46,208 nt of DNA from Acidobacteriaceae bacterium (GTDB lineage Bacteria > Acidobacteriota > Terriglobia > Terriglobales > Acidobacteriaceae). The DNA is taken from contig PMWW01000161.1 of the NCBI GenBank assembly GCA_003165795.1, forward strand, positions 1-46,208, read 5' to 3'. Below the pieces are notes generated by a model. The model worked only from the letters and a program-made list of their open reading frames with translations, was not told where the DNA came from and ran no database searches. A program made the translations under genes and the position numbers. This document shows positions 17,218-20,729 of this stretch, one piece after another; position 1 is the stretch's first letter; the number at the start of each line of letters is the position of its first letter.

Positions 17218-17611
17218 GGGCATTGAAATTGACTCCGCACCAAGATGTACGCGAAGTCGGCGGTCAATCAGAAGCCCCACCTTGCGGCCGCCCGCTGTTC
17301 TTAATATTCTTGCTTGACTTGAAACGAATCGGTACTACTCTGTAACCATTCCCTAGGAATTAAAAGCTCTAATCCATGCAGCGGCGGGCCGCGCCACTCG
17401 GTCTGTGCTTGGCCATCTTCAATCGGTTTCCCATCCGGGAACTGATGTTTCCAGGTGTTGGGATGGACCGAGGCTTTGCATCCGGTGCGTCTATTCGTCG
17501 GAAAGTATTCTTGACCGTATGCGCGTGGGGGAGGGCGTCAGAGGCTGTATTTTCCGCTCTTTCGGGTTCAAAATTGTCTTCTTGCGCGCAGTTGCAAGTG
17601 GGCAGCAGAAC
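17218..17611. other. Gene-free stretch between lutC and tRNA-Ser
   Basis: I find no convincing gene, repeat or RNA here. Short open frames exist, but none has a ribosome site together with a protein-like sequence. Confidence 0.5.
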
Positions 17612-17701
17612 TGGCGGAGAGAGAGGGATTTGAACCCCCGATACCCTTACGAGTATGCCTGCTTTCGAGGCAGGTGCCTTCAGCCACTCGGCCATCTCTC
17701 C
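17612..17701 (-). tRNA. tRNA-Ser, anticodon CGA
   Basis: On the minus strand the acceptor arm GGAGAGA (5' end at 17701) pairs with TCTCTCC, then discriminator G and an encoded CCA (17612-17614). The D-arm TGGCCGAGTGGCTGAAGGCA, the anticodon loop CTCGAAA (stem CCTGC/GCAGG, anticodon CGA, codon UCG), a long variable arm with ACTCGTAAGGGT, and the GGTTCAAATCC T-arm all fit a class II serine tRNA. Confidence 0.96.
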
Positions 17702-18028
17702 GCGCTCGCGGCGTAGAACAATATTGTAGCAGGGGTATTTCCCGCGCCGACGGTCGGGTCCAGTAGCGGGTCGGTCGTGGAAGATCAAGCCTTGTTGTTT
17801 CCGGCCTCCGCCGAAATCATTGTTACCTTTCCGATGCCAAAGGCGCGGCGAGTTGGAGCAGGCGGTTCGCAACTGCGTTCGCCGGTTATCATCATCCTCG
17901 CGCCCACAGCCTGGGTGTAGTTGCCGAGCGTTGTGCGCGCGTCACGACATGCTGTGACGAATCACATTGGACACTACTGCGCCACTTCCTACAATCGTGG
18001 TAAATGCCGGGAGCGGAATTTATCTAAC

Positions 18029-19315
18029 ATGAGCTATACCAGCGATCCCTTATCACCGCTGCCGGTCTATCCGGGCACGACGCCGCGCTTCCACGCCATG
18101 GTGAAGCCGATCGGGGCGATCTGCAATCTCGACTGCACCTATTGCTACTACCTGCACAAGGAAGAACTCTTGGGCAGCGACAGCAAGTTTCACATCAGCG
18201 ACGAGATTCTAGAAACCCACATTCGCCAGTACATCGAAGCCCAGCGCGGCGACGAAGTAGTGTTTTCATGGCAGGGTGGCGAGCCGACGCTGCTGGGTGT
18301 GGAGTTTTTCGAAAAAGTGGTGGCGCTGGAAAAGAAGTACCAGCGTCCCGGTCTGCACATCGAGAACGACCTGCAAACCAACGGCACGTTGCTGAATGAA
18401 GAGTGGTACTCGTTTCTACGCCAAAACAAATTCTTGGTTGGGCTGAGCATTGATGGTCCGCAGGAACTTCATGACCGCTTCCGAGTCAACAAAGGTGGGC
18501 AGCCGAGCTTCGAAAAAGTATTCGCCGCCGGTCAGCAGCTACAGAAGCATGGAATCCCGTTTAACACGCTGACGGTGATCAATCGCGTCAATGCGAAGAA
18601 GCCGCTGGACGTTTATCGCTTCCTGAGCCGTGAACTTCGCCCGCGGCAGCTCCAGTTCATTCCCTGCGTGGAGCCCAAGGTCTTCACCAACACTGCGCCT
18701 CAGAAATGGGACCCGGCCATGTTGCCGATACAGGATTCGCCCGCCGCGCGTTCGGGCAATCCCGATTCGGTGGTCACCGATTGGTCAGTCGATCCCGACG
18801 ATTGGGGTTACTTCCTCTGCAAGGTCTGGGACGACTGGTACCGCCGCGATTATGGCAAAGTACACGTCAACCTTTTTGAGACGGCAGTCGCCCAGTGGAT
18901 GGGCCTCGATTCTCAGCTGTGCGTTTTTGGCGAATTCTGCGGCAAAGGCGTGGCGCTGGAGCACGATGGCAGCGTCTATGCCTGCGATCATTACGTCTAT
19001 CCCGAATACAAACTGGGCAATATTTCTGAAAAGCACATATCGCGTATGATCTTCTCCGAGGGTCAGAAGAAGTTCGGCTTTGCCAAGCGCGATGACCTGC
19101 CTAAGCAGTGTCGCGAATGCAAGTACCGGTTTGCCTGCAATGGCGAGTGTCCGAAGAACCGGCTGATTCGCACGCGTGATGGCGAGCCTGGACTGAATTA
19201 CCTGTGCAGCGGCCTGCAGCAGTTCTGGCAGCACATCGATGGCGACATGAAGGACGTCCTACAGCGCGTCGAGCGCGCTGGAACTCCACGCCAGCTCCCG
19301 ACATTCCGCGTGTAA
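18029..19315 (+). CDS. Anaerobic sulfatase-maturating enzyme (radical SAM, SPASM)
   Basis: This radical SAM enzyme converts a Cys or Ser of a sulfatase active site to formylglycine. From the ATG at 18029 it is 428 residues; the frame is open further upstream but without protein-like sequence. The CX3CX2C motif is NLDCTYCYYLHK (with C from AICNLDC), preceded by FHAMVKPIG, a family signature. FSWQGGEPTLLG follows. The SPASM part has CVFGEFCGKG, YACDHYVYPEYKLG and CRECKYRFACNGECPKNR, so the auxiliary cluster ligands look intact. Its natural client should be a sulfatase; the only one nearby is the broken gene just downstream. Confidence 0.94.
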   Translation: MSYTSDPLSPLPVYPGTTPRFHAMVKPIGAICNLDCTYCYYLHKEELLGSDSKFHISDEILETHIRQYIEAQRGDEVVFSWQGGEPTLLGVEFFEKVVALEKKYQRPGLHIENDLQTNGTLLNEEWYSFLRQNKFLVGLSIDGPQELHDRFRVNKGGQPSFEKVFAAGQQLQKHGIPFNTLTVINRVNAKKPLDVYRFLSRELRPRQLQFIPCVEPKVFTNTAPQKWDPAMLPIQDSPAARSGNPDSVVTDWSVDPDDWGYFLCKVWDDWYRRDYGKVHVNLFETAVAQWMGLDSQLCVFGEFCGKGVALEHDGSVYACDHYVYPEYKLGNISEKHISRMIFSEGQKKFGFAKRDDLPKQCRECKYRFACNGECPKNRLIRTRDGEPGLNYLCSGLQQFWQHIDGDMKDVLQRVERAGTPRQLPTFRV

Positions 19316-19447
19316 CAAAGCGTTGTCTGGAAGCCAGTGTAACAATTGATGGTTCCCAACATCCACGCCAGGAGTGAACTGGGCAATGCGGGGAAAGTGG
19401 ATTTCCTCCCGGCAGCTAACCCTGACTGAAAAGGAAATAAGCATGGA

Positions 19448-19751
19448 CTCGGCTACATGACTTTCCAGAGTGGTAAGAACCATCTTGGCGACCGCAATGA
19501 GTTCCTGCCGACGGTGCACGGTTTCGATGAGTTCTTCGGCAACTTCTACCACCTGAATGCCGAGAAGGAGCCAGGGAATATTGACTACGCGCACTGGGGG
19601 CTCGATCGCGCCTAATTTGGCTTTTCCCGCAGCAGGTTATGTCGGGCAGTGGCTGAGCACCGTCAAGGAATTTCCTCCGCGCCAGAGGTCGGCCAGCTCC
19701 AACCTCAATCAGGTTATGACCCAGATAACGAATGCGGCGAACGACCACTAA
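19448..19751 (+). pseudogene. Arylsulfatase remnant with large internal deletion and frameshift
   Basis: Two pieces of an AtsA-type arylsulfatase can be read. Frame of 19457: [15 protein letters not shown], then [20 protein letters not shown] and LNAEKEP, ending at a stop at 19613. This matches the middle of the N-terminal domain, where intact enzymes read LGY.TGQFGKNHLGD. A different frame, from about 19617 to 19751, gives FPAAGYVGQWLSTVKEFPPR and NLNQVM, a typical arylsulfatase C-terminus. The catalytic Cys region and about 350 residues between the two pieces are missing. It lies right after the sulfatase maturase, so it was probably its substrate. Family assignment is from motif memory. 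Confidence 0.85.
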
Positions 19752-19799
19752 CCAGTTCCATCAGGCAAGGGGGGCCGCGGGGACGAAAGGACGCAGAGA

Positions 19800-20729
19800 A
19801 TGGACTTCCGCAAGCAATTTGAAGTTGAGCCTGGAACCAAGGTAAAACTTAGTGACTTCGACCCCGCTTACACCGGCCCATGTCCTTCTGAAAAAGAGGC
19901 GGCGCAGGATACCCAAAAGTACCTCGACAAGCTTCGCAAGCTTCAGTTCCTGCTGTATTCAGAGAAGAGACATTCCTTACTGATTGTGCTGCAAGCACTC
20001 GACGCAGCGGGCAAAGATGGCACTGTGAACCATGTCATGAGCGCCATGAACCCGCAGGGTACAACTGTGACCGGATTCAAGCAGCCCACCGCCGAGGACC
20101 TCGATCACGATTTCTTGTGGCGCGTTCACCCCCATGCCCCGGGCAAAGGCTCGGTAGCCATCTTCAACCGCTCACACTATGAGGATGTGCTGGTGGCGCG
20201 GGTCCACAAGCTGGTTCCCAAAGAGGTGTGGTCTGCCCGTTACGAATTCATTAACGACTTCGAGAAACTGTTGCGGTGCGAAAACAACACCCACATCCTC
20301 AAGTTCTTCCTCCACATAAGTCCTGAGGAGCAACTGGAACGATTCAAGCAGCGCCTCGATGACCCCAGCCGAAACTGGAAGATCAGTGATAGCGACTATA
20401 AAGAGCGCGCCTACTGGGACGCCTACACCAAGGCATTTGAGCAGGTATTCGCCGAGACCAGCAAGAAAGACGCACCCTGGTACATCATTCCCTCGAACCA
20501 CAAATGGTTCCGTAATCTGGCGGTGTCCCAAATCGTCGCCGCGACGATGGAAGATTTGGGAATGCAGATGCCGAAGCCTCAGGTTGACTTGGAGGTGATC
20601 CGCAAGGAATATCATCTGGCCGCCGGAGAGGGAAACGACGGGAAGAGCAGGAGCAAGTCTAAGGCGGGCGACGCCGGTGCAGAAGAGAAGAAGCAAGAAG
20701 ACAAGGGAAACAAGGACAAGAAGAAGTAA
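19800..20729 (+). CDS. Polyphosphate kinase 2 family phosphotransferase
   Basis: PPK2 enzymes move phosphate between polyphosphate and nucleotides. The 309-residue protein has the Walker A variant DAAGKDGT (residues 68-75), the Walker B region FNRSHYEDVLVARVH (122-136), and the lid region with R and K. The first 40 residues (FEVEPGTKVKLSDFDP) are typical of the polyphosphate:AMP or short class I/III PPK2 forms. The last 35 residues are a Lys/Glu-rich low-complexity tail (KKQEDKGNKDKKK), which could bind the polyanion. It stands alone, convergent with tadA. Which nucleotide it prefers cannot be read from the sequence. Confidence 0.92.
   Translation: MDFRKQFEVEPGTKVKLSDFDPAYTGPCPSEKEAAQDTQKYLDKLRKLQFLLYSEKRHSLLIVLQALDAAGKDGTVNHVMSAMNPQGTTVTGFKQPTAEDLDHDFLWRVHPHAPGKGSVAIFNRSHYEDVLVARVHKLVPKEVWSARYEFINDFEKLLRCENNTHILKFFLHISPEEQLERFKQRLDDPSRNWKISDSDYKERAYWDAYTKAFEQVFAETSKKDAPWYIIPSNHKWFRNLAVSQIVAATMEDLGMQMPKPQVDLEVIRKEYHLAAGEGNDGKSRSKSKAGDAGAEEKKQEDKGNKDKKK

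Follow-up and report, generated by a model that had tools for sequence, protein, structure and literature searches.

An intact sulfatase maturase gene beside a recently destroyed sulfatase gene in an Acidobacteriaceae genome

The maturase and the sulfatase relic

The stretch of DNA analysed here (the window) comprises 46,208 nucleotides and corresponds to contig C25 of the Acidobacteriaceae genome G000, a 4.95-Mb draft in 208 contigs with a completeness of 99.35%. It carries a sulfatase maturase gene of the anSME type, followed on the same strand by the remains of a sulfatase gene, and the two lie between a tRNA gene and a polyphosphate kinase gene. The following features were recognised (window coordinates, with the basis of each in brackets):

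17612–17701, minus strand: tRNA-Ser (CGA), upstream neighbour (ARAGORN)
18029–19315, plus strand: anSME (radical SAM/SPASM), 428 aa, full length and intact (TIGR03942, PDB 4k36, cysteine map)
19429–19442, plus strand: purine-rich stretch ahead of the relic start codon (by-eye comparison with L050, an intact sulfatase of the genus)
19443–19751, plus strand: sulfatase pseudogene, 309 bp remaining of a gene of about 1,623 bp, bounded by what are presumably its original start and stop codons (tblastn; length closure against the G157 ortholog)
19447/19448, plus strand: join 1, a 385-bp 5' deletion of codons 3 to 130 including the catalytic Cys, out of frame (comparison with the G157 ortholog)
19448–19579, plus strand: N-terminal piece of the relic, ending in EPGN (41/44 residues identical with the G157 sulfatase)
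19580–19588, plus strand: join 2, a 930-bp in-frame deletion of 310 codons within a short direct repeat (overlapping blastn pieces and arithmetic)
19589–19748, plus strand: C-terminal piece of the relic (19589–19612 in the frame of the N-terminal piece, the remainder shifted by +1)
19800–20729, plus strand: polyphosphate kinase 2 (PPK2), downstream neighbour (PF03976, E 5.5e-70)

The maturase scores 487 bits against the TIGR03942 profile, for which the curated cut-off is 349.45, and its best solved relative is PDB 4k36 (E 1.5e-59). In a residue-by-residue alignment, all 11 cluster cysteines and the Asp of the solved anSME are kept. C32, C36 and C39 align with C15, C19 and C22 of 4k36 (CxxxCxxC motif), which we take to be the radical-SAM cysteines; C298, C304, C319 and C374 align with C255, C261, C276 and C330, and C361, C364, C370 and C393 with C317, C320, C326 and C348, presumably the cysteines of the auxiliary clusters; and D320 aligns with D277, assumed to be the catalytic Asp. 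The profile score and this one-by-one map bear out the initial annotation, which had described the maturase as intact and as keeping all cysteine motifs. By family, the protein should be an active formylglycine-forming enzyme, and homology suggests that it would turn the active-site Cys of a sulfatase into formylglycine via radical SAM chemistry. Its top seven named relatives come from Acidobacteriota assemblies (Acidobacteriaceae/Terriglobia), the best one being 81% identical.

Both pieces of the relic match an intact sulfatase encoded on contig C49 of the same genome. When this protein was used as a tblastn query against the whole window, it matched positions 19451–19648 in frame 2 (E 4e-19) and 19617–19742 in frame 3 (E 1e-7), and the next match among those listed had an E value of 0.12. 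The earlier claims of a sulfatase remnant beside the maturase, and of N- and C-terminal pieces in different frames, are thus supported. Among 22 aligned relatives, the nearest to the relic is an intact CTAGR sulfatase of 540 aa (G157:C22:143-1774, minus strand) from a different species of the same genus, which represents the intact ortholog of the relic. The two tblastn matches and the presence of this ortholog indicate that the relic descends from an S1 sulfatase.

Three lesions separate the relic from the G157 sulfatase. At join 1, the position of which is exact to a few bases, ATGGA is followed by codon 131 at 19448. This deletion accounts for the loss of the catalytic Cys region (the Cys is residue 88 in the C49 sulfatase, a relative of the relic), as had been proposed before, and the CTAGR region is absent from the relic. 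Because the active-site C/S-x-P/A-x-R motif went with the 385-bp deletion, the relic is a pseudogene and not a member of the S1 sulfatase family (PF00884). The PF00884 profile gave 12.2 bits on the N-terminal piece, below the cut-off of 25, and neither piece exceeded a cut-off in Pfam or NCBIfam. At join 2, the direct repeat consists of the codons I/V-D-Y, which are present on both sides in the G157 ortholog. The residues AHWGLDRA (19589–19612) already belong to the C-terminal part (SHWRLDRV in G157), and lengthening the C-terminal piece by YAHWGLDRA raised the score in 13 of the 14 matched loci and left it equal in the remaining one. The third lesion is one added base at about 19615–19617, which causes a +1 frameshift. 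The join had initially been placed near 19613–19620; that site is instead the frameshift, and the true deletion join lies at 19580–19588. With these lesions the length of the relic closes exactly (1623 − 385 − 930 + 1 = 309, equal to 19443–19751). Ahead of the relic, TGAAAAGGAAATAAGC-ATGGAC in the window resembles, as judged by eye, TGAAAAGGAGGGTT-ATGGAC in front of the intact sulfatase L050.

The surroundings of the locus were also considered. A mobile-island reading, based on the tRNA-Ser gene ending 328 bp upstream of the maturase, was rejected: no insertion-marking repeats were found in 17300–20000, the GC content of the locus is 0.564 (0.587 for the window), and the neighbours are of chromosomal type. 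No maturase was matched around the closest PPK2 relatives (G139 and G201) within the flanking stretch examined. Among the 80 best named relatives of the maturase, a same-strand sulfatase lies no more than 1 kb away in 40 (downstream in 23, like the relic in the window, and upstream in 17); the other 40 have none there, and 27 of the 80 have none anywhere on the flanking sequence examined. These counts come from 16 sulfatase queries at E 1e-8, which may miss other sulfatase classes, and include 16 relatives with less than 1 kb of flank on one side (12 of these belong to the group that has no sulfatase nearby). An orphan anSME is therefore common and not unusual.

Recent death of the sulfatase and evolution of the maturase

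Over the 96 kept codons, the relic and the G157 ortholog show 19.5 nonsynonymous and 29.5 synonymous differences, corresponding to a dN/dS of 0.13, and the values for 28 pairs of eight intact relatives over identical columns range from 0.07 to 0.40. By part, the value is 0.02 for the N-terminal piece and 0.36 for the C-terminal piece, the latter being near the top of the range of intact pairs. Since the relic carries no clear excess of neutral or amino-acid change, the death of the sulfatase appears recent on the scale of species divergence. Thus, the CTAGR sulfatase neighbouring the maturase was destroyed recently, through two deletions and the insertion of one base. The number of conserved columns from which the relic departs was dropped as a measure of decay, as several of the residues concerned are also present in the live G157 ortholog.

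The sulfatase died too recently to leave much time for decay, so the intactness of the maturase is no proof of its continued use. The argument that the maturase has stayed intact since that death, and hence is under selection, was rejected for the same reason: at a relic dN/dS of 0.13, too little time has elapsed.

A second anSME is encoded in the source genome (C49:13150-14433) and is 89% identical to the window copy, with a dN/dS of 0.062 between the two. Judged by G200 or G139, the window maturase has 12–13 amino-acid changes of its own and the C49 copy 19–20. In a tree of 21 rows, which includes a wrongly delimited row (L089) with a very long branch, the window and C49 maturases group together at 98/93, with G200 outside at 100/96, and among these three close copies the end branch of the window maturase is the shortest (0.052, vs. 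0.090 for C49 and 0.11 for G200, whose maturase lacks about 20 residues at an undetermined base). The synonymous distances are 0.81 (window and G200), 0.97 (window and C49) and 1.47 (C49 and G200), an order that differs from that of the tree; the maturase duplication may thus be older or younger than the split from G200.

Sulfatases and maturases in the genome, genus and family

Eight intact PF00884 sulfatases are encoded elsewhere in the source genome, all with a Cys-type motif: CTAGR in three (C49, C63 and C26), CSPTR in three (C63 and twice on C205), CTLGR in one (C136) and CSPAR in one (C189). CxPSR, the motif initially suggested for sulfatases in the rest of the genome, occurs in none of the eight. 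The second anSME and an intact CTAGR sulfatase share contig C49. Moreover, a bona fide oxygen-dependent FGE is present on C63 (PDB 2q17, E 1.7e-73), with a Cys pair in GGSFLCTDQYC that presumably forms the copper site. Sulfatase debris of the CSPTR type was also observed behind the second anSME, on the opposite (minus) strand (C49:14519-14688, L015); it consists of two pieces, with a change of reading frame between them at the Cys motif, and is a second sulfatase relic adjoining an anSME in this genome.

Across nine genomes of the genus, an anSME above the cut-off is present in three (twice in G000, and in G139 and G200) and was not found in G063, G173, G187 and G201. In G157 the only match with a family-like score is in pieces (L147 8295-9311, G157:C80): its reading frame changes after about residue 72, and residues 210–273 are missing. 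In this species the intact ortholog of the dead sulfatase sits on another contig (C22). In G115, roughly the last third of the anSME is left, attached to an N-terminal sulfatase part (L148 8224-9064, G115:C117, minus strand), the motif of which is SSPSR (CSPSR in the intact G139 relative); no intact PF00884 match was found in G115. At this locus, remnants of both partners have been fused by a deletion. The maturase-sulfatase pair therefore decays repeatedly in the genus, as shown in these two further species. Between the window species and G157 the pair has split in opposite ways: the former kept the maturase and lost the sulfatase, and the latter kept the orthologous sulfatase but has a fragmented anSME and lacks a bona fide FGE.

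The mildly unusual part of this pattern is that four of the nine members have intact Cys-type sulfatases and no recognisable maturase, without an anSME above the cut-off (G157, G173 and G187, with CTAGR and other motifs, and G063, with CSPTR and CTATR). The PF03781 proteins listed for these four include EgtB in each, and the further ones are fusions, with a kinase in G157 and G187 and with a STAND-NTPase in G063, none of the fusions having the FGE Cys pair. Large proteins with an FGE-like domain without paired cysteines (GGAWDEP.YM) occur as L189, L192 and L197 (G157, G187 and G115); L189 and L192 are Ser/Thr kinase fusions, and for L197 the comparison covered its motif and length. With a reported completeness of 100%, the absence of a maturase is suggestive for G063, and it is no proof for G157, G173 and G187 (93, 90 and 82%). 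A further formylglycine-forming enzyme has been inferred in E. coli, and the sulfatases of G157, G063, G173 and G187 might conceivably be matured by such an enzyme, other than anSME and FGE. This idea is improbable; it gains somewhat from the complete G063 belonging to the group without a maturase, and draft gaps or an unrecognised FGE in these species are the more likely explanation.

At the family level, 20 of 200 genomes encode a protein related to the C49 sulfatase (E ≤ 1e-100). An anSME above the cut-off was found in five of the 20 (G000, G139, G178, G037 and G082), and an FGE at E ≤ 1e-59 in at least 13. Neither was found in at most five (G157, G173, G120, G026 and G112, of which G026 and G112 gave partial matches near 1e-16 only). 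The FGE figures come from a single query protein, so that 13 is a lower bound and five without either an upper bound; this search missed two PF03781 proteins that a Pfam search had picked up, one in G200 and one in G063, both of which have no Cys pair. In six of the 13 genomes (G031, G040, G095, G108, G177 and G180) an FGE gene is situated at most about 3.1 kb from the C49-type sulfatase, and in G082 an anSME lies about 1 kb ahead of it. Thus, anSME and FGE seem to be interchangeable as neighbours of this sulfatase class. Since the class lives with either maturase, loss of a partner would be easily tolerated, and a one-to-one bond of the window maturase with its lost neighbour is disfavoured.

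Interpretation and comparison with known systems

The window contains what was once a maturase-sulfatase gene pair, in line with the same-strand sulfatase close to the maturase in 40 of the 80 named relatives. The client has died, and the maturase most likely continues to modify intact sulfatases elsewhere in the genome. Its clients would overlap with those of the second anSME and of the oxygen-dependent FGE, both of which are present, and the local loss is one case of repeated sulfatase and maturase shedding in the genus. A probability of about 0.78 was assigned to this reading. Distant clients together with redundancy look like the simplest explanation, and the second activator copy and the eight intact sulfatases elsewhere suggest ordinary reductive gene decay. 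Two possibilities had been raised at the outset for the maturase. Service to a distant client is plausible, given those eight sulfatases. That the maturase is on its way out finds no sign in the sequence, yet the sulfatase died too recently for this to count heavily, and the 89% identical copy and the FGE provide a backup.

The second of these possibilities leads to the strongest alternative, in which the maturase is already useless and next to decay, looking intact through the recency of its client's death while the other anSME and the FGE do the work. Besides the low relic dN/dS and this redundancy, the broken anSME genes of G157 and G115 and the four of nine genomes in which none was found are consistent with it. 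Moreover, FGE is commoner than anSME with this sulfatase class in the family, which counts against continued use: clients of this kind do not depend on an anSME, and the window maturase might have no work to do. On the other hand, the window copy shows no speed-up, as it has fewer changes of its own than the C49 copy and its end branch is shorter; this argument is weak, as most of that history pre-dates the death of the sulfatase. A useless maturase is regarded as possible but rather unlikely.

An assembly or sequencing artefact hiding an intact sulfatase at this site is very improbable. The draft is in 208 contigs and one lesion of the three involves just one base, but two separate deletions would have to be explained together with the insertion, and the kept pieces are closer to the G157 sulfatase than to any sulfatase of their own genome (the best, on C49, has 78% identity over 46 residues), unlike what the collapse of another locus of the same genome would give. 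That the relic encodes a functional mini-protein or a regulatory RNA for the maturase is hardly credible, because, in spite of the kept purine-rich stretch and ATG, the frame from this ATG meets a TGA after five codons (MDSAT), the catalytic motif is gone, and neither piece passes a Pfam or NCBIfam cut-off.

On the preferred reading of a former pair with a surviving maturase, the locus provides a well-resolved case of a gene that recently became a pseudogene next to an intact modifying enzyme, and it illustrates that the presence of an anSME gene does not prove that a sulfatase alongside works. Genomes of the genus and family that have an anSME alone, an FGE alone, both or neither provide a natural test for assigning maturases to sulfatases. 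A literature search on anSME and sulfatases in Acidobacteria returned no paper, and one on pseudogenes among sulfatases and maturases returned nothing judged related by title; no wider absence is claimed.

Compared with known systems, the window maturase resembles the solved anSME (TIGR03942; 4k36-4k39) in its full length, its radical SAM and SPASM domains and its 11 Cys and Asp, and differs in that its neighbouring client is dead and its function is predicted. The relic, whose N-terminal piece is nearly identical to that of the intact 540-aa member of the genus, differs from S1 sulfatases (PF00884) of the CTAGR subclass in being a pseudogene without about 81% of the gene, including the catalytic Cys. 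In Bacteroides thetaiotaomicron, according to PMC6388578, a single anSME acts on many sulfatases (Benjdia et al. 2011, cited therein). The two systems are alike in having a maturase that does not adjoin its clients, whereas the window genome differs in having two anSME and an FGE for eight sulfatases.
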